DNA from: Gemmatimonadota bacterium
GTDB taxonomy: Bacteria; Gemmatimonadota; Gemmatimonadetes; Gemmatimonadales; Gemmatimonadaceae
Assembly: GCA_021324635.1 (NCBI GenBank)
Contig: JAJPIS010000106.1
Location: 1-39,070, forward strand
DNA: 39,070 nt
Direction: 5' to 3'
Each line of letters starts with the position of its first letter. The stretch's first letter is position 1. The position numbers were made by a program, and so were the translations under genes. Of this stretch, positions 5,845 through 23,520 are shown one piece after another. Under the pieces are notes generated by a model. The model searched no databases and was not told the DNA's origin. It saw only the letters and a program-made list of their open reading frames with translations.

Positions 5845-5944
5845 GCGTCCCGCGGACGCCAAAGGAACAGGGTTTGTTGGATGGTGCAGGGGCAATTCGC
5901 GTCGCGAATTGCCCCTGCACCGCGAACAGCAACGACGCGGTGGG
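5845..5944 (+). repeat. 100-bp hairpin element, copy A
   Basis: Starts GCGTCCCGCGG and contains CCAAAGGAAC and TTGGATGGTGC. It then forms a perfect 18-bp stem (5883-5900 with 5904-5921) around a 3-base loop, GTC. It ends GAACAGCAACG...CGCGGTGGG. An inverted copy of exactly the same length lies at 6474-6573. Base changes in the stem are paired between copies, so the hairpin is conserved even where the sequence differs. Confidence 0.85.
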
Positions 5945-6009
5945 GCCGTGAAGCCGTCGTGGCACGTGGCCGCGTGGGGGGGCCGGGGGGGGGGTGGCGT
6001 GCGTGTCCC

Positions 6010-6042
6010 GGCGCACCGGGAACGGCAACGACGGGCGCGGGG
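6010..6042 (+). repeat. Partial third copy of the 100-bp element (right end only)
   Basis: The segment GCACCGGGAACGGCAACG followed by a GC-rich stretch matches the right end of the 100-bp hairpin element (GGCACCGGGAACAGCAACG). The left half and the hairpin are missing. It looks like a decayed or truncated copy. Confidence 0.5.
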
Positions 6043-6126
6043 TGACGGCGCCGTGGCCGCGGGCGTGCGGGCGTGTCGATGCCCCGACCACCGACGACGG
6101 GGGGGGGACGTCGTGACGTCCCGTGG

Positions 6127-6218
6127 GGGCGGCATGAATGCCGCCCGCCGTTCGCCGTTCGGCACATCATGCCGCGCCCCGTCCCGCGGCCTCCGTAGGG
6201 GCGGCATTCATGCCGCCC
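6127..6218 (-). repeat. Paired-palindrome (BIME-like) element, copy 1
   Basis: Two palindromes, 6127-6146 (GGGCGGCATGAATGCCGCCC) and 6199-6218 (the same in reverse orientation), bracket about 52 bp. Read on the minus strand the whole 92-bp unit aligns with 34702-34794. Both include the spacer signature 'tgccgaacgg(g)cgaacggcgggcgg'. Each palindrome has 9-bp arms and a 2-base loop. Confidence 0.8.
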
Positions 6219-6334
6219 GCTGCTGTCATTTCGCACCAATGCCTGGCCCGGCATGTCACGCCGTTCGCCGTTGCCGGTCGGCATCCACGCCGCCGTGGGC
6301 GCGGAATGCCACACCCGGGGCGGCATCGCAGGCC

Positions 6335-6440
6335 GGCCGGCATCGGTGCGGATGCAATTCGCGGGCGGTATGACGGACCGGGTCACGCATCCGTGTGGGA
6401 TGCGATCAGCGGGCGGCATGAATGCCGCCCCTACGATACG
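6335..6440 (+). repeat. Hairpin module repeats (GCATC...GATGC plus GGCATGAATGCC)
   Basis: Two successive units follow the pattern of a mini-hairpin GCATCxGTGxGGGATGC, a few bases ending in GCGGGCGG, and then the 20-bp palindrome. The second palindrome is 6411-6430, followed by CTACGATACG. In the first unit the palindrome has decayed to GCGGGCGGTATGACGG. Confidence 0.7.
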
Positions 6441-6473
6441 CCCCGTTGCCGTGGGCCGACGACGGCATCGTCA

Positions 6474-6573
6474 TCCCACGCGGCCGTTGCTGTTCCCGGT
6501 GCCGGGGGCAATCGCTTCGCGATTGCCCCCGGCACCATCCAAAAATCCCGTTCCTTTGGTGGCCGCGGGACGC
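6474..6573 (-). repeat. 100-bp hairpin element, copy B (inverted)
   Basis: Read on the minus strand it matches the 5845-5944 element end to end without a length change. It begins GCGTCCCGCGG, contains CCAAAGGAAC and TTGGATGGTGC, and ends GAACAGCAACGGCCGCGTGGG. The stem is 6498-6515 paired with 6519-6536 (18 bp, perfect), and the loop reads GAA on the minus strand. The two copies face opposite ways and enclose 529 bp. Confidence 0.85.
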
Positions 6574-6582
6574 GGCCGTCCC

Positions 6583-6683
6583 GGCATCGGGGCGGGATGC
6601 GCACGGCGGGCGGCATGAATGCCGCCAGGCATCCGTGCGGGATGCGAATCGCGGGCGGCATGAATGCCGCCCCTACGATACGA
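6583..6683 (+). repeat. Hairpin module repeats, second pair
   Basis: Two units in tandem. The mini-hairpin GGCATCGGGGCGGGATGC is followed by a palindrome at 6609-6626. A second mini-hairpin, GCATCCGTGCGGGATGC, is followed by a palindrome at 6653-6672 and CTACGATACG. The unit beginning near 6628 is nearly identical to the one ending at 6440. Confidence 0.75.
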
Positions 6684-6912: not shown

Positions 6913-7965
6913 ATGTCCCTCGCTCGCTCGGCCCTCCTCCGTGCGTCCCGCAGCCCCTGGCTCGCCGACCAATTCCGCCGCCGGGCGTTCGCGCGCCGGG
7001 CGGTCCGCCGGTTCATGCCGGGTGAGGACCTCGAGTCGGCGCTCGGGGCGGCCCGGACGTTCGCCGATGTGGGCATCGGCAGCGTGCTCACCAATCTCGG
7101 CGAGCGCGTGACGACGGCCACCGAGGCGGATGCGGTGCGCGCGCACTACGCCGGCGTGCTCACGACGCTGCGCGAGCGTAACCTGCCCGCGCACGTGTCG
7201 GTCAAGCTCACGCACCTCGGGCTCGACGCCGACCAGGAGCGCTGCGCGCGCAGCGTCGCCGATCTCGCGGCATGCGCTGCCGAGAGCGGGTCGTTTCTCT
7301 GGATCGACATGGAGGAGTCGCACTACGTCGACCGGACGATCGAGATCTTCCGCCGCGTCCGCCTATCCCATCGCGCGGTCGGACTCTGCTTGCAGGCATA
7401 CCTGCATCGGACGCCGGCGGACCTCGATACCCTCCTCACCGACGGCGCAGCGATTCGGCTCGTCAAGGGAGCCTATCGCGAGCCTCCGGATGTCGCGATC
7501 CCGCGCAAGACGGACGTCGACGCCGTCTATCTCACCCTCGCCGGACGGCTGCTGGACCGCGCCGCGACCGGCGGCGCGACCCCGGCTTTCGGCACGCACG
7601 ACCTCGCCATTCTCGAGCAGCTCGCACGGCGAGCGGCCGGCTCTGCGGGCGGCTCCGCGGGCGGCTCCGCGGGCGGCTCCGCGGGCGGCTCCGCGGGCGG
7701 CTCCGCGGGCGGCTCCGCGGGCGGCTCCGCGGGCGGCTCCGCGGCCGCGCCGGCGGCGGACCGCGCCGGCCCCGGCACCCCGCCACCGTTCGAGGTCCAC
7801 ATGCTGTACGGCATCAAGGCGGCGGAGCAGCGTCGGATCGCCGCCGGCGGCACGCCCGTCCGCGTGCTCATCAGCTACGGCGCCCAGTGGTTCCCCTGGT
7901 ACATGCGCCGCCTCGCCGAGCGCCCCGCGAACGTCTGGTTCGTCGTGCGCAACCTGGTGTCCTGA
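6913..7965 (+). CDS. Proline dehydrogenase (FAD-dependent), monofunctional
   Basis: A 350-residue protein starting at ATG 6913 (MSLARSALLRASRSPWLADQ). It oxidises L-proline to pyrroline-5-carboxylate and passes electrons to the respiratory chain. PRODH barrel motifs appear in order: SVKLTHLGLD (K98), WIDMEESHYVD (about 130-140), GLCLQAYLHRT (158-167), RLVKGAYRE (182-190), GTHD (227-230), FEVHMLYGI (293-301), and near the end YGAQWFPWYMRRLAERPANV, which carries the proline-binding arginines. Between GTHD and FEVHML sit nine Gly-Ser-Ala-Gly units (residues 243-278), an unusual flexible insert inside the barrel made by a 12-bp minisatellite. No P5C dehydrogenase lies nearby. No clear ribosome site is seen; the leader carries the 29-bp repeats. 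Confidence 0.92.
   Translation: MSLARSALLRASRSPWLADQFRRRAFARRAVRRFMPGEDLESALGAARTFADVGIGSVLTNLGERVTTATEADAVRAHYAGVLTTLRERNLPAHVSVKLTHLGLDADQERCARSVADLAACAAESGSFLWIDMEESHYVDRTIEIFRRVRLSHRAVGLCLQAYLHRTPADLDTLLTDGAAIRLVKGAYREPPDVAIPRKTDVDAVYLTLAGRLLDRAATGGATPAFGTHDLAILEQLARRAAGSAGGSAGGSAGGSAGGSAGGSAGGSAGGSAGGSAAAPAADRAGPGTPPPFEVHMLYGIKAAEQRRIAAGGTPVRVLISYGAQWFPWYMRRLAERPANVWFVVRNLVS
7639..7746 (+). repeat. 12-bp minisatellite, nine units, inside proline dehydrogenase
   Basis: The unit GGCTCCGCGGGC is repeated from 7639. The first unit has one change (T for C) and the ninth ends in GGCC. Being a multiple of three, the array keeps frame and encodes (Gly-Ser-Ala-Gly)8 plus Gly-Ser-Ala-Ala. The near-perfect identity of the units suggests recent expansion. 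Confidence 0.95.
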
Positions 7966-8959: not shown

Positions 8960-11104
8960 CTATGCGGCGAGCACGCGCTCGATCGCCTCGGCGACGCGAT
9001 CGGCGTCCGGGAGGACGGCGTCGAGCAGGATCTCGTGATACGGCATCGGGACGTCGGCGACCGCCAGGCGCTCCACCGGCGCGTCGAGCCACCAGAAGGC
9101 CTCCCGCGCGACCGTGGCCGCGATCTCGCTCCCGAACCCCGCCGTTTGCGTGTCCTCGTGCACGATCAGGCACCGTCCGGTGCGCCGCACGCTCTCGAGC
9201 ACCGCGTCCCGGTCCCAGGGTGCGATGGTGCGCAGATCGAGGAGGTCCACCTGGTCGGTAAACCGGTCGGCGGCGGCCGTGCACCGGTGGACCATCGCCC
9301 CCCAGGTCACGAGCGTGATGCCGCGTCCCTCCCGGAGGCGGCTCGCGCGGCCGAGGGGGAGCACGTACTCGTCGCCGGGATAGCGCGCGCTCCCGTCGCT
9401 CGTCATGAGGAGCGAGCGATGCTCGAAGAAGATGCTCGGGTTGGGGCTGCGCATGGCCGCCCGCAGGAGTCCGACCGCGTCCGCCGCGTTCGACGGGACG
9501 AGCACCTGCCAGCCGATCGCGTGCGCCCACGTCACCTCGCTGCTGAGCGAGTGCCAGGGATCGCCCACGTCCTTCCCGAACCCACCCGGCATGCGGACGA
9601 CGATCGGCGCCGCGAACTGGTTGTGGGTCCGCCACCGCATCGTCCCACAGTTGTTCAACTGCTCGGTGGCCGGGTCGGCGTACTTCCGAAACTGGATCTC
9701 GGCCACCGGCACGAGCCCGGCCACCGCCATACCGACCGCCCGGCCGATGATCCCCTCCTCGGACAGACTGGTGTCGAAGACGCGGTCCGGGCCGAACCGC
9801 TTCTGGAGTCCTTCGGTGACGAGGTGCACGCCGCCCTTGACGCCCACGTCCTCGCCGAACACCACCAGCTTGGGGTTCGCCGCCAGCTCCGAGGCCAGCG
9901 TCCGGCGCACGGCCTCGGCGAAGCGCACCACGGGTCCCTCCGCCGCCGCCTCGGCCCGCCCACCCAGCGCGACGCGCTCGGCCGCCGACAGCCCTCCGAT
10001 CGGCTCGGGATCGCCCGGCCGGGGCGTCTCGGCGTACACGAACCGCCGCACGGTCGCGGGGTCCGGCGCCGGCCGGCCGCGCGCGGCGGCCAGCGCGGCG
10101 GCCACATCGCCCTCCACCTCACCCTCGAGCACGCGCCACTCCTGCGGCGTCATCACCGCGGGGACGATGTGCGCCCGCAGCCTGGGGAGCGGATCGCGCT
10201 CCCAGTCGGCGGCGATCTCGGCGTCCGTCCGATAGCCGCGCTGGTTGTCGGGACCGGAGTGATTGCAGAGGCGCGGCACGGTGAGGCGGATCAGCGCCGG
10301 GCCGCGCCCACCGCGCACGTGCGCGACGACCTCGTCCAGCAGTCGCGCCGACTCGGCGGGGTCGGTGCCGTCGCCATCGCGCACGAACAGGTTGCCGAAC
10401 GAGGCGAGGTTGGCCGCGATGTTCCCGCCCGGGGTCTGCATCTCCCCGCGCACCGAGATACCGAGCCCGTTGTCCTCGATGTAGAAGAGCATCGGGAGCG
10501 ACAGGGTCGTCGCCATCGTGAGCGCAGACCAGAAGCCGTTGGTGGCGACCGATGCCTCACCGCCGAGCGCGACCGCGATCGAGCCCGCATGGCGCTCGTC
10601 GCCGAGGACGTGGCGGTGATATCGAATCGCCTGAGCCCACCCGGCCGTCGGCGTGAACTGCCCGCCGACATCTCCGGCCATCGGGAGCACCACCGGCCCT
10701 CCGCCGGGGCGCGGCGGAAGGTTGCACACGACGCCGATGTCGCGGCCGGAGCTGAAGCCACCCGTTCTGCCGAGCGGGCTCGCCAGCGCGTCGTCGATCG
10801 ACAGGCCGAGCGCGAGCAGAAGCGGCCGGGAGCGATAGTACGCGCCCGCGGCGTCGCCCGGGCGGTCGAGCAGGGAGCCGAGGAGTACCTGTGCGACCTC
10901 GTGCCCGCGGGCCGAGAACTGGTAGAGGACCAGGTGCTCACGCGGGACGCCCGCCTTGTTGCGGTTCGTCGACTCCTCGATGTCGTCGAGCGCGCGCGAG
11001 ACGAGGGCGTGATAGGCGATCCGGCGCCAATCGCGGGATGGGCCGGGCGCACGGTCGCGCGCTGCGTCGCCGCGCCCGGCCACGGGCACCGAGTGGGTCG
11101 TCAC
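8960..11104 (-). CDS. 2-oxoacid dehydrogenase E1, fused alpha and beta subunits
   Basis: A 714-residue thiamine-diphosphate enzyme. Residues about 30-400 are the alpha part, with a TPP/Mg site in 'GGEASVATNGFWSALTMA...FYIEDNGLGIS'. Residues about 405-714 are the beta part, with FGEDVGVKGG, FDTSLSEEGIIGRAVGMA, PVAEIQFRKYADPA and the C-terminal transketolase domain DLRTIAPWDRDAVLESV. It decarboxylates a branched-chain or aryl 2-oxoacid and reductively acylates an E2 lipoyl domain. No E2 or E3 gene is in the window. The gene sits 7 bases after paaD and 5 before the crotonase gene, hence in the paa operon. Phenylpyruvate to phenylacetyl-CoA is an attractive but inferred role; branched-chain oxoacids are the default family substrate. 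Confidence 0.87.
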   Translation of the reverse strand: MTTHSVPVAGRGDAARDRAPGPSRDWRRIAYHALVSRALDDIEESTNRNKAGVPREHLVLYQFSARGHEVAQVLLGSLLDRPGDAAGAYYRSRPLLLALGLSIDDALASPLGRTGGFSSGRDIGVVCNLPPRPGGGPVVLPMAGDVGGQFTPTAGWAQAIRYHRHVLGDERHAGSIAVALGGEASVATNGFWSALTMATTLSLPMLFYIEDNGLGISVRGEMQTPGGNIAANLASFGNLFVRDGDGTDPAESARLLDEVVAHVRGGRGPALIRLTVPRLCNHSGPDNQRGYRTDAEIAADWERDPLPRLRAHIVPAVMTPQEWRVLEGEVEGDVAAALAAARGRPAPDPATVRRFVYAETPRPGDPEPIGGLSAAERVALGGRAEAAAEGPVVRFAEAVRRTLASELAANPKLVVFGEDVGVKGGVHLVTEGLQKRFGPDRVFDTSLSEEGIIGRAVGMAVAGLVPVAEIQFRKYADPATEQLNNCGTMRWRTHNQFAAPIVVRMPGGFGKDVGDPWHSLSSEVTWAHAIGWQVLVPSNAADAVGLLRAAMRSPNPSIFFEHRSLLMTSDGSARYPGDEYVLPLGRASRLREGRGITLVTWGAMVHRCTAAADRFTDQVDLLDLRTIAPWDRDAVLESVRRTGRCLIVHEDTQTAGFGSEIAATVAREAFWWLDAPVERLAVADVPMPYHEILLDAVLPDADRVAEAIERVLAA

Positions 11105-11111
11105 GTGGCGC

Positions 11112-11657
11112 TCAGATCGCCTTGAACCGCTCGAACGGCTGCCGACAGTGCTCGCAGAACATCACCGCCTTGCATACGGTCGGGCCAAACTCGCTCCGTT
11201 CCGTCGTCGCGCTCGACCCGCAGTACGGACAGCGCACCCGCGGCTCGCGGCGCCGGAGCGGGACGAGGTCGGGGGACTCGCCGTCGCGGATCACATCCGC
11301 GGGCGGGGGCGGCGCGATCCCGTAGGCCGCGAGCTTCGCGCGTGCAGCCTCGCCGATCCAGTCGGTCGTCCAGGCCGGCGAGAACACTGTCCGGACGGTC
11401 ACCTCCGGCCAGCCCGCGGCGCCCAGTGCGGCGACGATGTCGCGCTCGATGACGCGCATCGCCGGACACCCCGAGTAGGTCGGCGTGACGGCGACGGTCA
11501 CCCGGCCCTCGTCATCCACCTCGACGTCGCGCACGATCCCCAGCTCGACGACGCTGAGCGCCGGGACCTCCGGATCCATCACCTGGTCCAGCACGCCCCA
11601 TATCGGCTCGGCCGTGCCGGCCGCCGTCACGACGTCGCCCCCCGGCCGCGTCACCAT
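11112..11657 (-). CDS. paaD: PaaD, DUF59/zinc-finger factor for the phenylacetyl-CoA epoxidase
   Basis: A 181-residue protein starting at ATG 11657, overlapping the end of paaC by 7 bases; a GTG at 11654 would give a 4-base overlap. The N-terminal MIP18/DUF59 domain has 'VLDQVMDPEVPALSVVELGIVRDVEV' and 'TPTYSGCPAMRVIERDI', the cluster-assembly Cys motif. The C-terminal zinc ribbon has CPYCGSS and CEHC. PaaD is needed to make active PaaABC epoxidase, probably by delivering or repairing its metal or Fe-S centre. Length is close to the usual value of about 165. Its place directly after paaC supports the call. Confidence 0.92.
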   Translation of the reverse strand: MVTRPGGDVVTAAGTAEPIWGVLDQVMDPEVPALSVVELGIVRDVEVDDEGRVTVAVTPTYSGCPAMRVIERDIVAALGAAGWPEVTVRTVFSPAWTTDWIGEAARAKLAAYGIAPPPPADVIRDGESPDLVPLRRREPRVRCPYCGSSATTERSEFGPTVCKAVMFCEHCRQPFERFKAI

Positions 11658-12472
11658 GTGGCGCCGGGGTTCGAGCGCTGGAGGATCTGCATCTCGGCCA
11701 GCAGGTGCCCGAGATGCTCCGTGTGCCGCCCCACGCGACCCCCGCGCTGCATGTAGCCGGACTCCGGGACGCGCAGCGTCGCGCGCCGCACGACATCGGT
11801 CACCTGTGCGCGCCAGGGCGCCTCCAACGGCGCCAAATCGGGGACGAGCCCGGCGCCGACGAGTATCTCGTCGACCGCATCGGTGAGGAACATCTCCCCC
11901 GTGTACCGCCAGAGATCGTCGAGCGCGGCCTGGGCGCGCCCATGGCTCTCGGCCGTGCCGTCGCCCAGCTTGAGCAGCCACTCGCCGGCGTGGCGCACGT
12001 GGTATCTCGTCTCCTTGAGCGCTTTGGCCGCGATGCCGGCCAGCGCCGGATGCGTGCTCCGCGTCAGTCCCTCGAGCTGATAGTAGGCGGCGACACCGAA
12101 GAGGAAGTGGCGCACGATCGTGACCGCAAAGTCGCCGCGCGGCAGCTCGACGAGCAGCACGTTGCGGTAGTCGATCGCCTCCCGCAGGTAGGCGAGCGCG
12201 TCCTCATCGCGCCCCGCACCCTCGGTCTCGCCGGCGAGCCGGAGAAAGAGCGTCGCCTCACCGATCAGGTCGAGCGCGATGTTGGCGAGCGCGATGTCCT
12301 CCTCCAGAATGGGCGCGTGACCGCACCACTCCGAGAGCCGGTGGCCGAGCACCAGGCGGTCGTCGCCGAGGCGAAGGAGGTACTGGACGAGGGCCGCGCG
12401 CAGTGCCGGGTCGAGGGCGGGCACCGCGCCAGGCTCGCCCTTCCGCTTCGCGGGATGCGCGGTCGATGCCAT
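11651..12472 (-). CDS. paaC: PaaC, structural subunit of phenylacetyl-CoA 1,2-epoxidase
   Basis: A 273-residue protein starting at ATG 12472, only 2 bases after paaB. It has the ferritin-like all-helical fold of PaaC: 'LVQYLLRLGDDRLVLGHRLSEWCGHAPILEEDIALANIALDLIG' (in pieces) near the start, then 'YRNVLLVELPRGDFAVTIVRHFLF' and 'ALKETRYHVRHAGEWLLKLGDGTAESH'. PaaC pairs with PaaA in the multicomponent oxygenase and lacks a full diiron site in known members; it stabilises PaaA and helps bind CoA. The N-terminus has about 20 extra polar residues relative to the usual 248-residue protein. Confidence 0.95.
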   Translation of the reverse strand: MASTAHPAKRKGEPGAVPALDPALRAALVQYLLRLGDDRLVLGHRLSEWCGHAPILEEDIALANIALDLIGEATLFLRLAGETEGAGRDEDALAYLREAIDYRNVLLVELPRGDFAVTIVRHFLFGVAAYYQLEGLTRSTHPALAGIAAKALKETRYHVRHAGEWLLKLGDGTAESHGRAQAALDDLWRYTGEMFLTDAVDEILVGAGLVPDLAPLEAPWRAQVTDVVRRATLRVPESGYMQRGGRVGRHTEHLGHLLAEMQILQRSNPGATW

Positions 12473-12474
12473 GC

Positions 12475-12819
12475 TCAGACCCGTACGCCGCGCGGCACGC
12501 TGTAGAACTGGGGGTGCCGGTACGGCTTGTCGTTCCCCGGGTCGAAGAACGGGCCCACGTCCTCCGGGGTCGAGGCCGTGATGGCCGCGGTCGGCACGAC
12601 CCAGATGTTGACCGCCTCGCCGCGGCGGGCGTACACGTCGCGTGCGTTCTGGAGCGCGGCCTCGGCGTCCACCGCGTGCACACTTCCGGCGTGCTCGAAT
12701 GGCGCGCCGCCGGGCGGCTGCACGAACACCTCCCAGAGCGGCCACTGATCGCCGGGCCCCGCAGAGGGGGAAGCGGCCGACCCGGCGCCGTCTCCACGCG
12801 GTGGCGCCCGGTCGCTCAT
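12475..12819 (-). CDS. paaB: PaaB, small subunit of phenylacetyl-CoA 1,2-epoxidase
   Basis: A 114-residue protein. ATG 12819 is preferred because it leaves a 22-base gap after paaA; an upstream in-frame ATG at 12879 would overlap paaA by 38 bases. After a low-complexity lead (PPRGDGAGSAASPSAGPG) comes the PaaB core: 'WPLWEVFVQPPGGAPFEHAGSVHAVDAEAALQNARDVYARR', then 'VNIWVVPTAAITAS' and 'KPYRHPQFYSVPRGV'. PaaB bridges PaaAC heterodimers into the larger epoxidase assembly. The N-terminal extension is longer than in the 95-residue E. coli protein. Confidence 0.93.
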   Translation of the reverse strand: MSDRAPPRGDGAGSAASPSAGPGDQWPLWEVFVQPPGGAPFEHAGSVHAVDAEAALQNARDVYARRGEAVNIWVVPTAAITASTPEDVGPFFDPGNDKPYRHPQFYSVPRGVRV

Positions 12820-12841
12820 ACGCGCGATGGTTGCTGCCACG

Positions 12842-13798
12842 TCATGCCGCGGCGGCCGACCCGCCCGACTCGGCGGCACGCTTGGCGGCGTAGGCCGCGG
12901 CCGCCTCGCGCACCCACGCGCCGGAGGCGTGGGCCTCGTTGCGGGCCGCGAGGCGCTCGCGATTGAGCGGACCGTCGCCGTGGATGACGCGGTCGAACTC
13001 GGCCCAGTCGATCGGGCCGAAGTGCCAATCCTTGGTCGCCTCGTCGTAGCGAAGCGCCGGGTCGGGGAGCGTCAGGTCGATCGCCCTGGCCTGCGCGACG
13101 GTGAGGTTCACGAACCGCTGCCGCAGCTCGTCGTTGCTCTTGCGCTTCACGCCCCAGCGCGTCAACTCGGCCGAGTTGGGGGAGTCCTTGTCCGACGGCC
13201 CGAACATCATGAGCGAGGGCCACCACCAGCGATCGACCGCATCCTGCGCCATGCGCTTCTGGGCCGGCGTGCCGGCGGCGAGCGTGGCCATGATCTCGTA
13301 GCCCTGCCGCTTGTGGAAGTTCTCCTCCTTGCAGATCCGGATCATCGCCCGCGCGTACGGCCCGTACGATGCCTTGGCCAGCATCGTCTGGTTGACGATC
13401 GCCGCGCCGTCCACGAACCACCCGATGGCGCCGATGTCGGCCCAGGTGAGCGTCGGGTAGTTGAAGATGCTGGCGTATTTCGCCTTGCCGGTCAGCAACT
13501 GGTCGATCAGCTCGGCCCGACTCACACCCAGCGTCTCCGCGCCGCAGTAGATGTACAGCCCGTGCCCGGCCTCGTCCTGCACCTTGGCCAGCAGCCCCAT
13601 CTTGCGGCGGAGGGTCGGCGCCCGGGTGATCCAATTCCCTTCCGGCAGCATCCCGACGATCTCGGAGTGGGCATGCTGGGACATCATCCGGATGAGCTGC
13701 TTCCGGTACCGCTCGGGCATCCAGTCCTTGGGCTCGACCGTCTCGCCCGCCGCGATCCGGGCCTCGAACTCGCGCTGTGCTGCCGCGTCATCTGGCAT
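12842..13798 (-). CDS. paaA: PaaA, catalytic diiron subunit of phenylacetyl-CoA 1,2-epoxidase
   Basis: A 318-residue protein starting at ATG 13798, preceded by GGAGGAGGCGGGAG, of which GGGAG is well spaced. It uses O2 to epoxidise the aromatic ring of phenylacetyl-CoA. The ferritin-like core carries diiron ligand motifs in '[22 protein letters not shown]' (in pieces; ExxH) and '[11 protein letters not shown]' (ExxH), with further helices '[22 protein letters not shown]' (in pieces) and '[17 protein letters not shown]'. Length matches the family (about 309). No PaaE reductase gene follows paaD, so electrons must come from a reductase encoded elsewhere. Confidence 0.96.
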
Positions 13799-13860
13799 CG
13801 TCACTCCCGCCTCCTCCGTCCGACCTGCCAACCGGCGACTCACCCCTAAATCTATCCCGC

Positions 13861-16026
13861 TCAGGTCACTCGCGCGGGCGCATCACCGCGCTGCGTGCGC
13901 TGCATGACGCCAGGCTGCGCGAGCGCGGCCGGGGCCTCGCTGCCCAGATCCCGCGCCAGCGCCGCGCCCGACTCCGGGAGCCCGGCGCCGGACCGCCGCC
14001 GCACCAGTGTCAGGATCGTATACACCGCCACCGGCTCGTCATGCTGGTTGGTGACCTCCACGTCCCAGGCGACCACACCCTGGGGCACCTGCCCCTCGCG
14101 ATCCTCTTTTACCGTCTTCTGCTTGCACGTCAGTCGGGCCCGGATCGTGTCGCGGACATAGACCGGCTTCACAAACCGGAGGCTCTCCAGGCCGTAGTTG
14201 GCCAGCACCGGCCCATAGGCCGGATCGACGAACAGCCCGGCGGCGGCCGAGAGCACGAAATACCCGTGGGCCACCCGCCGCTCGAAGATCGACTGCTTCG
14301 CGGCCACCTCGTCCATGTGCACGTAGAAGAAGTCCCCGCTGATCCCGGCGAAGTTGACGATATCGCTCTCGGTCACGGTCCGGCCGTGCGTCCGCAGCGT
14401 CTCGCCGATCTCCAGCTCCTCGAAGTACTTGCGGAACGGGTGGACCCGGTCGTGATGCTCCGCCGCCTTGGGCAGCCACTCCCGGGTGACGGCCGCCAGC
14501 ACCGTCGGTGAGCCCTGGAGGGCCGTGCGCTGCATGTAGTGCAGGACGCCACGGACCCCGCCCATCTCCTCCCCCCCGCCGGCTCGACCCGGGCCGCCAT
14601 GGACGAGGTGGGGGAGGGGTGACCCGTGGCCGGTGGACTCCTTGGCGCTCGTCCGGTCGACGATCATGATCCGCCCGTGGTAGGCGGCCGTGCCCAGCAC
14701 CACCGTGCGGGCGGTGTCGGGGTCGGCGGTGAAGAGCGAGCCGACGAGCGACCCCCGGCCGAGCTTGGCGAGCTCCACCGCCTCGTCGAGCGAGGCGTAC
14801 GGCATCACCGTGTTGACCGGCCCGAAGGCCTCGACGTCGTGCGGCGCCCGTCGGTCGAACGGCCGGTCATCGTAGAGGAGCACCGCTGGGAAGAACGCAC
14901 CGCGCTCGGGGTCGGCGCCGACCACGTCCAGCCGGTCGAAGCCGCCGTACACGATCTCCGCCGCGGCGCGCAGCTTCTCGAGGCTCTGCCCGACTTCTCG
15001 GACCTGCGCCTTCCCGGCGAGGGGCCCCATGCGCACCCCGTCGACAGCCGGGTCACCGATCGTGACGCCGCTCAACCGTTTCCCGAGAGCCGCGATCACA
15101 TCGTCGACCATCGACGCCGGGACGATCGTGCGCCGGATCGCCGTGCACTTCTGGCCGGCCTTGACGGTCATCTCGCGCACGACCTCCTTGACGAAGAGGT
15201 CGAACTCGTCCGTGCCCGGGCGCGCGTCGGGGGCGAGCATCGAGAAATTGAGCGAGTCCGCCTCCTGGTTGAACCGGACGGAGTGTTCCACCATCGCTCG
15301 CCCTGTCTTGAGCGCATGCCCCGTCGCGGCCGACCCGGTGAAGGCCACCGCGTCCTGGCAATCCACGTGATCCAGGAGATCGCCGGCACTCCCGCAGAGG
15401 AGCTGGAACGCGCCCGGAGGAAGGAGCTCCGAGTCGACCATCGCGCGGGCCACCGCCTCCGTCAGGTAGGACGTCACCGTGGCCGGCTTCACGATCGACG
15501 GCACGCCGGCGAGGAGCGCCGTCGACATCTTCTCGAGCATCCCCCAGACGGGGAAGTTGAACGCGTTGATGTGCACGGCCGCCCCCTCGAGTGGCACGCA
15601 GATGTGCCGCCCGACGAAGGTGCCGTTCTTGGAGATCGCCTCCATCGATCCGTCGACGTAGAAGCGCTCGTCGGGAAACTCGCGGCGACCACGGCTCGCA
15701 TACGCGAACAGCGTCCCGATCCCCCCGTCGATGTCGATCCAGCTGTCCGACCGCGTCGCCCCGGTTGCGCGCGAGAGGTCGTAGAACTGCTCCTTCCGCG
15801 CCGTCAGATACTGCGCGAGCGCCTTGAGCATCCGCGCCCGCTCGTGGAAGGTGCGCGCGCGCAGGGCGGGACCCCCGACCGTCCGAGCGTAGTCGAGCAC
15901 CGCCCTGAAGTCGATCCCCTCGGTGCTCGCCTCGGCGACCTTCTCGCCGGTGACGGCATGGAAGAGATCCGTGCCCTTCCCGGATCCCCGAACCCACGCC
16001 CCCCGCACGTAGTTCTCGAGCCGCAT
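13861..16026 (-). CDS. paaZ: PaaZ, oxepin-CoA hydrolase / aldehyde dehydrogenase fusion
   Basis: A 721-residue bifunctional enzyme. Residues 1 to about 530 are an NADP-dependent aldehyde dehydrogenase with [25 protein letters not shown], 'FTGSAATG', general-base Glu in [10 protein letters not shown] and catalytic Cys in GQKCTAIRR. Residues about 540-690 are a MaoC-like hotdog hydratase with '[18 protein letters not shown]', which holds the Asp and His of the (R)-hydratase site. The hydratase domain opens the oxepin-CoA ring, and the dehydrogenase domain oxidises the resulting aldehyde to 3-oxo-5,6-dehydrosuberyl-CoA. Both catalytic sets look intact. The C-terminal tail (about 40 residues) is extra and polar. 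It lies 75 bases after paaY and 62 before paaA. Confidence 0.95.
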
Positions 16027-23473: not shown

Positions 23474-23520
23474 CGATGATCACGGGCCCACTCGCTCACC
23501 GAGTGGGCCCGTGATCATCG
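23474..23520. terminator. Bidirectional hairpin terminator, 21-bp perfect stem
   Basis: Arms 23474-23494 and 23500-23520 pair perfectly over 21 bp around a 5-base loop, CTCAC. It sits between two convergent genes (ends at 23451 and 23539), where a shared terminator is expected. There is no long T-tract, so it may work by hairpin strength alone or protect mRNA ends. Confidence 0.8.

Follow-up and report, generated by a model that had tools for sequence, protein, structure and literature searches.

What keeps the two arms of a long hairpin matched when its sequence changes from one copy to another? The question is raised by two inverted copies of a short palindromic element in a 39,070-nucleotide stretch of a Gemmatimonadota bacterium (contig JAJPIS010000106.1, assembly GCA_021324635.1), referred to here, in its whole length, as the window. 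An earlier note had described two copies of exactly 100 bp, each with a perfect 18-bp stem and a 3-base loop, and had taken the matched differences between the stems as a sign of selection for structure, as in an RNA element, a transposase-bound hairpin or a non-autonomous element.

Two copies of a hairpin element in the window

Inspection of the sequence and a repeat search placed both copies where they had been described, at 5845-5944 (plus strand) and 6474-6573 (minus strand), and recovered in each the perfect 18-bp stem and 3-base loop, with every difference between the arms of the two copies matched. The exact length of 100 bp was not upheld, the conserved core being about 92 bp (5845..5937 in copy 1 and 6482..6573 in copy 2).

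Copy 1, which adjoins a gene start and has no REP directly upstream, is built in the order H2 hairpin (GCGTCC-CGC-GGACGC), box CCAAAGGAAC..TTGGAT, long hairpin and tail GCGAACAGCAACGAC. Its long hairpin (5883..5921, plus strand) has arms GGTGCAGGGGCAATTCGC and loop GTC, and can be read as 18 bp with the GTC loop or as 19 bp with 1 nt; these arms, designated stem type A, are present in at least 20 copies. Copy 2 has the H2 variant GGCCGCG-TCC-CGCGGCC and an 18-bp long hairpin (6498..6536, minus strand) with loop GAA on the element strand and arms GGTGCCGGGGGCAATCGC, which are carried by this copy only. When folded as single strands, both copies were much more stable than shuffled sequence (z -4.7 to -6.0).

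The neighbourhood of the two copies contains several smaller repeats. GTAG-tagged REPs were located at 6195..6218 (plus strand, GTAGGGGCGGCATTCATGCCGCCC, with an H2 module before it at ~6180), at 6411..6434 (minus strand, downstream of copy 2 in the orientation of that copy) and, by the repeat search, at 6653..6676 (minus strand), as the next unit of the array, while a REP core without GTAG was located at 6608..6626 (minus strand), immediately before copy 2 when read in the orientation of that copy. The repeat search also revealed the tail repeat GCACCGGGAACGGCAACGACG at 6013..6033 (plus strand), a second partial right-hand box downstream of copy 1, and a REP-like palindrome without strand, GGGCGGCATGAATGCCGCCC, at 6127..6146.

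Perfect stems unrelated in sequence to the element family were seen at 23474-23520 of the window (21 bp, 5-nt loop) and at L064:5643-5688 (palindromic, 22 bp, 2-nt loop). The window also contains a proline dehydrogenase gene with a low-complexity GGSA/GGSAGGS linker, about 45 aa long (7639-7780), which interrupts the match to the homologs of all six relatives (query about 243-289), and, as judged from translations only, minus-strand genes resembling a phenylacetate degradation (paa) cluster (8960-16026).

Size and distribution of the family

A BLAST search with copy 1 returned ~40 additional copies in the source genome (4.1 Mb), and a covariance model based on 30 copies detected ~70 in all, more than 20 of which had been missed by BLAST and were outside the building set. 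Therefore, a chance origin of the window pair is excluded, and the many dispersed copies with covarying stems that the earlier note had named as support, instead of just two, were indeed found. The copy number is approximate, as the assembly is split into 127 contigs, with many copies located at their ends; those within a few hundred bases of an end are in C1, C5, C23, C25, C43, C48, C52, C55, C58, C59, C94, C104, C113, C115 and C125. Because so many copies are near contig ends, the family itself probably caused breaks in the assembly. With crude gene calls based on a simple GC-by-codon-position rule, 31 of 35 elements were intergenic, and copies were often found between convergent genes.

Outside the source genome, the covariance model detected no copies in 36 related genomes, two of them of the same genus, and BLAST over 60 genomes gave just two matches of 23-30 bases (G015 and G028). 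By eye, both appear to be chance matches, lying within coding-looking sequence and having no hairpin. The single match in a pattern scan of a genome contig collection, in Bacteroides, was also taken as chance, and the pattern had no match among viral contigs, plasmids or phages. The window had no Rfam match at the gathering threshold, and a described family with the sequence of the element was not found in the collections searched (genome contigs, Rfam, viral contigs, plasmids and phages). Among the genomes searched, the family is species-specific to the source bacterium.

REP sequences and a RAYT transposase in the same genome

The GTAG-headed REP GTAGGGGCGGCATTCATGCCGCCC occurs at 288 sites in the genome (with at most one core mismatch) and at none in 59 relatives (up to three mismatches). 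It resembles the REPs of known GTAG REP/RAYT systems (Nunvar 2010, PMC2817692; Di Nocera 2013, PMC3733652) in that the head GTAG is directly followed by a GC-rich palindrome, GGGCGGCATTCATGCCGCCC, in that its ~290 copies are mostly extragenic and cluster with the mostly intergenic elements, and in that the RAYT gene of the genome lies between inverted copies of it.

This RAYT gene, at C75:2458-3117, was the only Y1 transposase (Y1_Tnp) gene found in the genome by a search that covered Y1 transposases only, and its match to NCBIfam REP_Tyr_transpos (E 1e-21, 77.4 bits) falls just under the cut-off of 80. The REP is present on one side of the gene and its inverse on the other, which is the published RAYT/REP arrangement (PMC2817692, PMC3733652), and an element copy lies ~700 bp from the gene. 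As the earlier note had stated, the window is without a reported RAYT, the sole one in the genome being elsewhere. In G002, G036, G031, G051 and G056, RAYT relatives lie between inverted pairs of other hairpins; those at L078-L083 and L089 mostly have their own different inverted pairs, such as GTAGGGGCGCAGCATGCTGCGCCCCTAC in G036.

The 100-bp element, in contrast, lacks a GTAG or GTGG head of its own; its long hairpin is preceded by TTGGAT or TTTGAT. It differs from GTAG REPs also in having an 18-bp stem closed by a 3-nt loop, and its length exceeds the 20-40 bp of the REPs described (PMC2817692, PMC3733652). With respect to its neighbours, a REP was found upstream in the same orientation in 51 copies and in the opposite one in 1, with none recognisable in 15, and the distances cluster at 54 and 66-72 bp; downstream, the REP had the same orientation in 42 cases and the opposite in 3. 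REPINs (Bertels and Rainey 2011, PMC3116915), which are likewise RAYT-linked replicative repeats, consist of two inverted REPs in one hairpin, whereas in the present case the hairpin that follows a single REP is separate from it and unrelated in sequence, and the same-strand ratios (51:1 and 42:3) are not those of an inverted pair.

The modules recur in the order REP, H1 (GCATCCCGCACCGATGC), H2 (GCGTCCCGCGG), box CCAAAGGAAC..TTGGAT, long hairpin, box GGGAACRGCAACGACG, variable tail and next REP. After H2-CACC, either the element or directly a GTAG REP follows, providing a pair with and without the element within the genome. Such module swapping and the recurrent REP-H1-H2-element order are shared with BIMEs, in which palindromic units and extra motifs form intergenic mosaic arrays, although the REPs here are mostly in tandem in the same orientation, in contrast to the alternating REPs of BIMEs (PMC2817692), and the extra motif bears a long perfect hairpin. 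Therefore, as the element lacks the GTAG head and the composite is not a REPIN, we classify the element as a mosaic module associated with REPs. Directly before many GTAG REPs (L026, L054, L050 and others), a second GTAG hairpin, GTAGGGGCGGCCGCCAGGCCGCCCC, was observed, and the tails after the element in L017, L031 and L037 contain short tandem arrays, for example of GGGTGACGGC and GGGGCATCACC repeats.

The junction at H2-CACC with and without the element would also fit a free-standing non-autonomous transposon (MITE-like or hairpin) with its own transposase, whose adjacency to REPs would come from the common intergenic space or from the use of H2/REP palindromes as targets. The copies without an upstream REP, such as that at 5845 in the window and that at L061:16416, which starts right after a gene stop, are in line with this explanation, and some REP families do lie within other palindromes (PMC3733652). 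We consider it unlikely, as the 51:1 orientation bias and the preferred REP spacing speak against it. In an unsystematic look at alignment A1, the hairpins were the only terminal inverted repeats noticed. The transposase search covered Y1 transposases and found one gene, so a partner of another kind may exist. Part of the dispersal could nevertheless be REP-independent, given the 15 copies without a recognisable upstream REP.

Comparison with syntenic loci of relatives

At the syntenic locus of C120, located between a conserved siroheme decarboxylase-like gene (identified by eye) and a conserved membrane-protein gene, the intergenic region is ~750 bp in the source genome and holds four REPs and an element copy. 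Its counterparts in G001 and G002 are ~265-280 bp, align to each other throughout and have no REP. As the spacer is long with REPs here and short without REP in both relatives, the comparison supports a probable insertion in this lineage, at exact points that are unreadable. The window locus gave no empty site, the proline dehydrogenase homologs of the relatives being only 37-49% identical, and the rhomboid locus had no syntenic partner.

Covariation of the long stem

In an alignment of 69 distinct rows, 98.2% of the pair cells were standard pairs, compared to 85.6% in shuffled alignments, and 13 of the 21 pairs varied on both sides. Two-sided changes occupied 166 cells versus 54 in shuffles, and the covariation score was 0.302, a value reached by 0 of 500 shuffles, versus 0.092 in shuffles; the signal was lost when the partners were slid. 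As this alignment is fitted to the structure, an ungapped count was made alongside, and in a stack of 38 39-mers positions 4-7, 11, 12 and 14 varied, nearly always as matched pairs.

Perfect stems of at least 15 bp were found in 51 of the 69 copies, with about a dozen arm sequences. Some matched stem types have one copy each, among them GGTGGCAGGGGCAATCGC and GGTGCCAGGGACAATCGC, and the mostly unrelated arm GGTGATCACGCCGGTCGC of L113 is still paired, with one wobble. Single-arm mismatches persist in a number of other copies.

This strong covariation is what would be expected of a structured RNA under selection, in which the hairpin would act after transcription as a regulatory element, an mRNA-end stabiliser or in a terminator-like manner, and purifying selection would change both arms. 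Sixteen type A copies have identical arms despite a median flank divergence of 27%, the family is mostly intergenic and often between convergent genes in the crude gene calls, and transcription is frequent among REPs in general, which may work as RNA (PMC3733652), all of which favour such a role. The terminator reading was rejected, as the stem is not followed by a T-run on the element strand. This, the lack of an Rfam match in the window, the absence of the element from all relatives searched, the persistence of single-arm mismatches and a loop that is free in both reverse-complement forms make an RNA under selection an improbable explanation.

Loop inversions and stem replacements

The loops of the perfect stems were GTC (13), GAC (13), TTC (8), GAA (5), ACA (2), GCA (2), GGA (2), TCC (2), and GTT, AAC, TAT and TTT (1 each); TGC was found in a bulged copy. 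They include five reverse-complement pairs (GTC/GAC, GAA/TTC, GGA/TCC, GCA/TGC and GTT/AAC), so that the reverse complement was present for 10 of 13 loop types, compared to a mean of 2.5 in random sets (P 0.0004, by a test that ignores the kinship of the copies). Inverted loops were found between copies 2-3% apart in their flanks (L065 and L018; L054 and L068), and L105 and L106, with flanks 1% apart, differ at all three loop bases. Two L051 copies, with GAA and TTC, would need three substitutions or one inversion. Unlike this loop, that of the REP is fixed, being TTCA in 83 of 84 GTAG REPs.

On a weakly supported flank tree, loop state was independent of the tree (5 changes versus 5.1 in shuffles), and stem type showed almost the same independence (11 versus 13.2). 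Such movement of stems between flank contexts is expected if gene conversion between copies were the only process, shuffling a few ancestral stem types as blocks with no copying from arm to arm, and window copy 2, whose stem differs while its flanks are 10-14% from type A copies, also agrees with it. As conversion alone creates no new matched stem types, such as the one-copy GGTGGCAGGGGCAATCGC and GGTGCCAGGGACAATCGC, and does not predict reverse-complement loops, we regard it as very unlikely to be the whole explanation. Block exchange between copies contributes to the stem pattern, and gene conversion can be an alternative source of block-replaced stem types.

Arm homogenisation together with spacer inversion between close copies is the pattern reported for template-switched inverted repeats, in which switching from arm to arm homogenises the arms and inverts the spacer (PMC8604942); it has also been put forward as a way in which RNA hairpins with multi-base compensatory changes arise and are maintained (PMC8794818). 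The likeness extends to the short spacer or loop, but those studies inferred the process from comparisons of species or strains at individual loci, whereas the pattern described here spans ~70 copies in one genome. Compensatory changes across the REPIN hairpin have also been reported as common (PMC3116915).

Discussion

The explanation that we favour, as reasonably probable, is that the element is a lineage-specific module of a BIME-like mosaic associated with RAYT and REP, and that template switching rewrites its long palindrome again and again. The mosaic consists of GTAG-tagged REPs, which the single RAYT would serve, the short linker hairpins H1 and H2, and the unit with the 18-bp perfect hairpin. 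The RAYT would spread the REP-bearing unit via single-stranded DNA, with the long hairpin travelling along. During DNA replication, a polymerase would copy one arm from the other, so that a change or indel would appear in both arms, and a switch from strand to strand would invert the 3-base loop; at the DNA level, such switching would largely keep the hairpin perfect. This single mechanism could account for the matched substitutions, the matched indels and the loop inversions. No clean excision, target-site duplication or transposition intermediate was seen, which counts against this explanation.

Because loop inversion with arm matching is the published signature of template switching, covariation alone is not proof of a selected RNA here. 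The proposal of a dispersed, structured and probably non-autonomous element was borne out, with many covarying copies and a RAYT/REP link; the step from matched changes to selection was not, as the reverse-complement loops and whole-loop replacements between close copies are given by template switching without selection. As the arms are far more conserved than the flanks, there may also be some selection on the hairpin as a bound DNA or RNA structure.

A bolder and rather unlikely extension is that flipping and rewriting of the hairpin belong to the life cycle of the element, for instance through its handling by a RAYT as single-stranded DNA, so that each transposition would reset its perfection and randomise the orientation of its loop. 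If true, the family would represent a new kind of composite REP element whose palindrome repairs itself. Covariation is usually taken to prove a selected RNA structure; here, together with the loop inversions, it indicates a mutational cause, and the ~70 copies in one genome are a natural replicate experiment for telling selection apart from template switching. The family also extends RAYT/REP mosaics to a lineage in which the RAYTs of several neighbouring genomes have other REP-like hairpins next to them, which suggests a fast turnover of REP sequences between related genomes.
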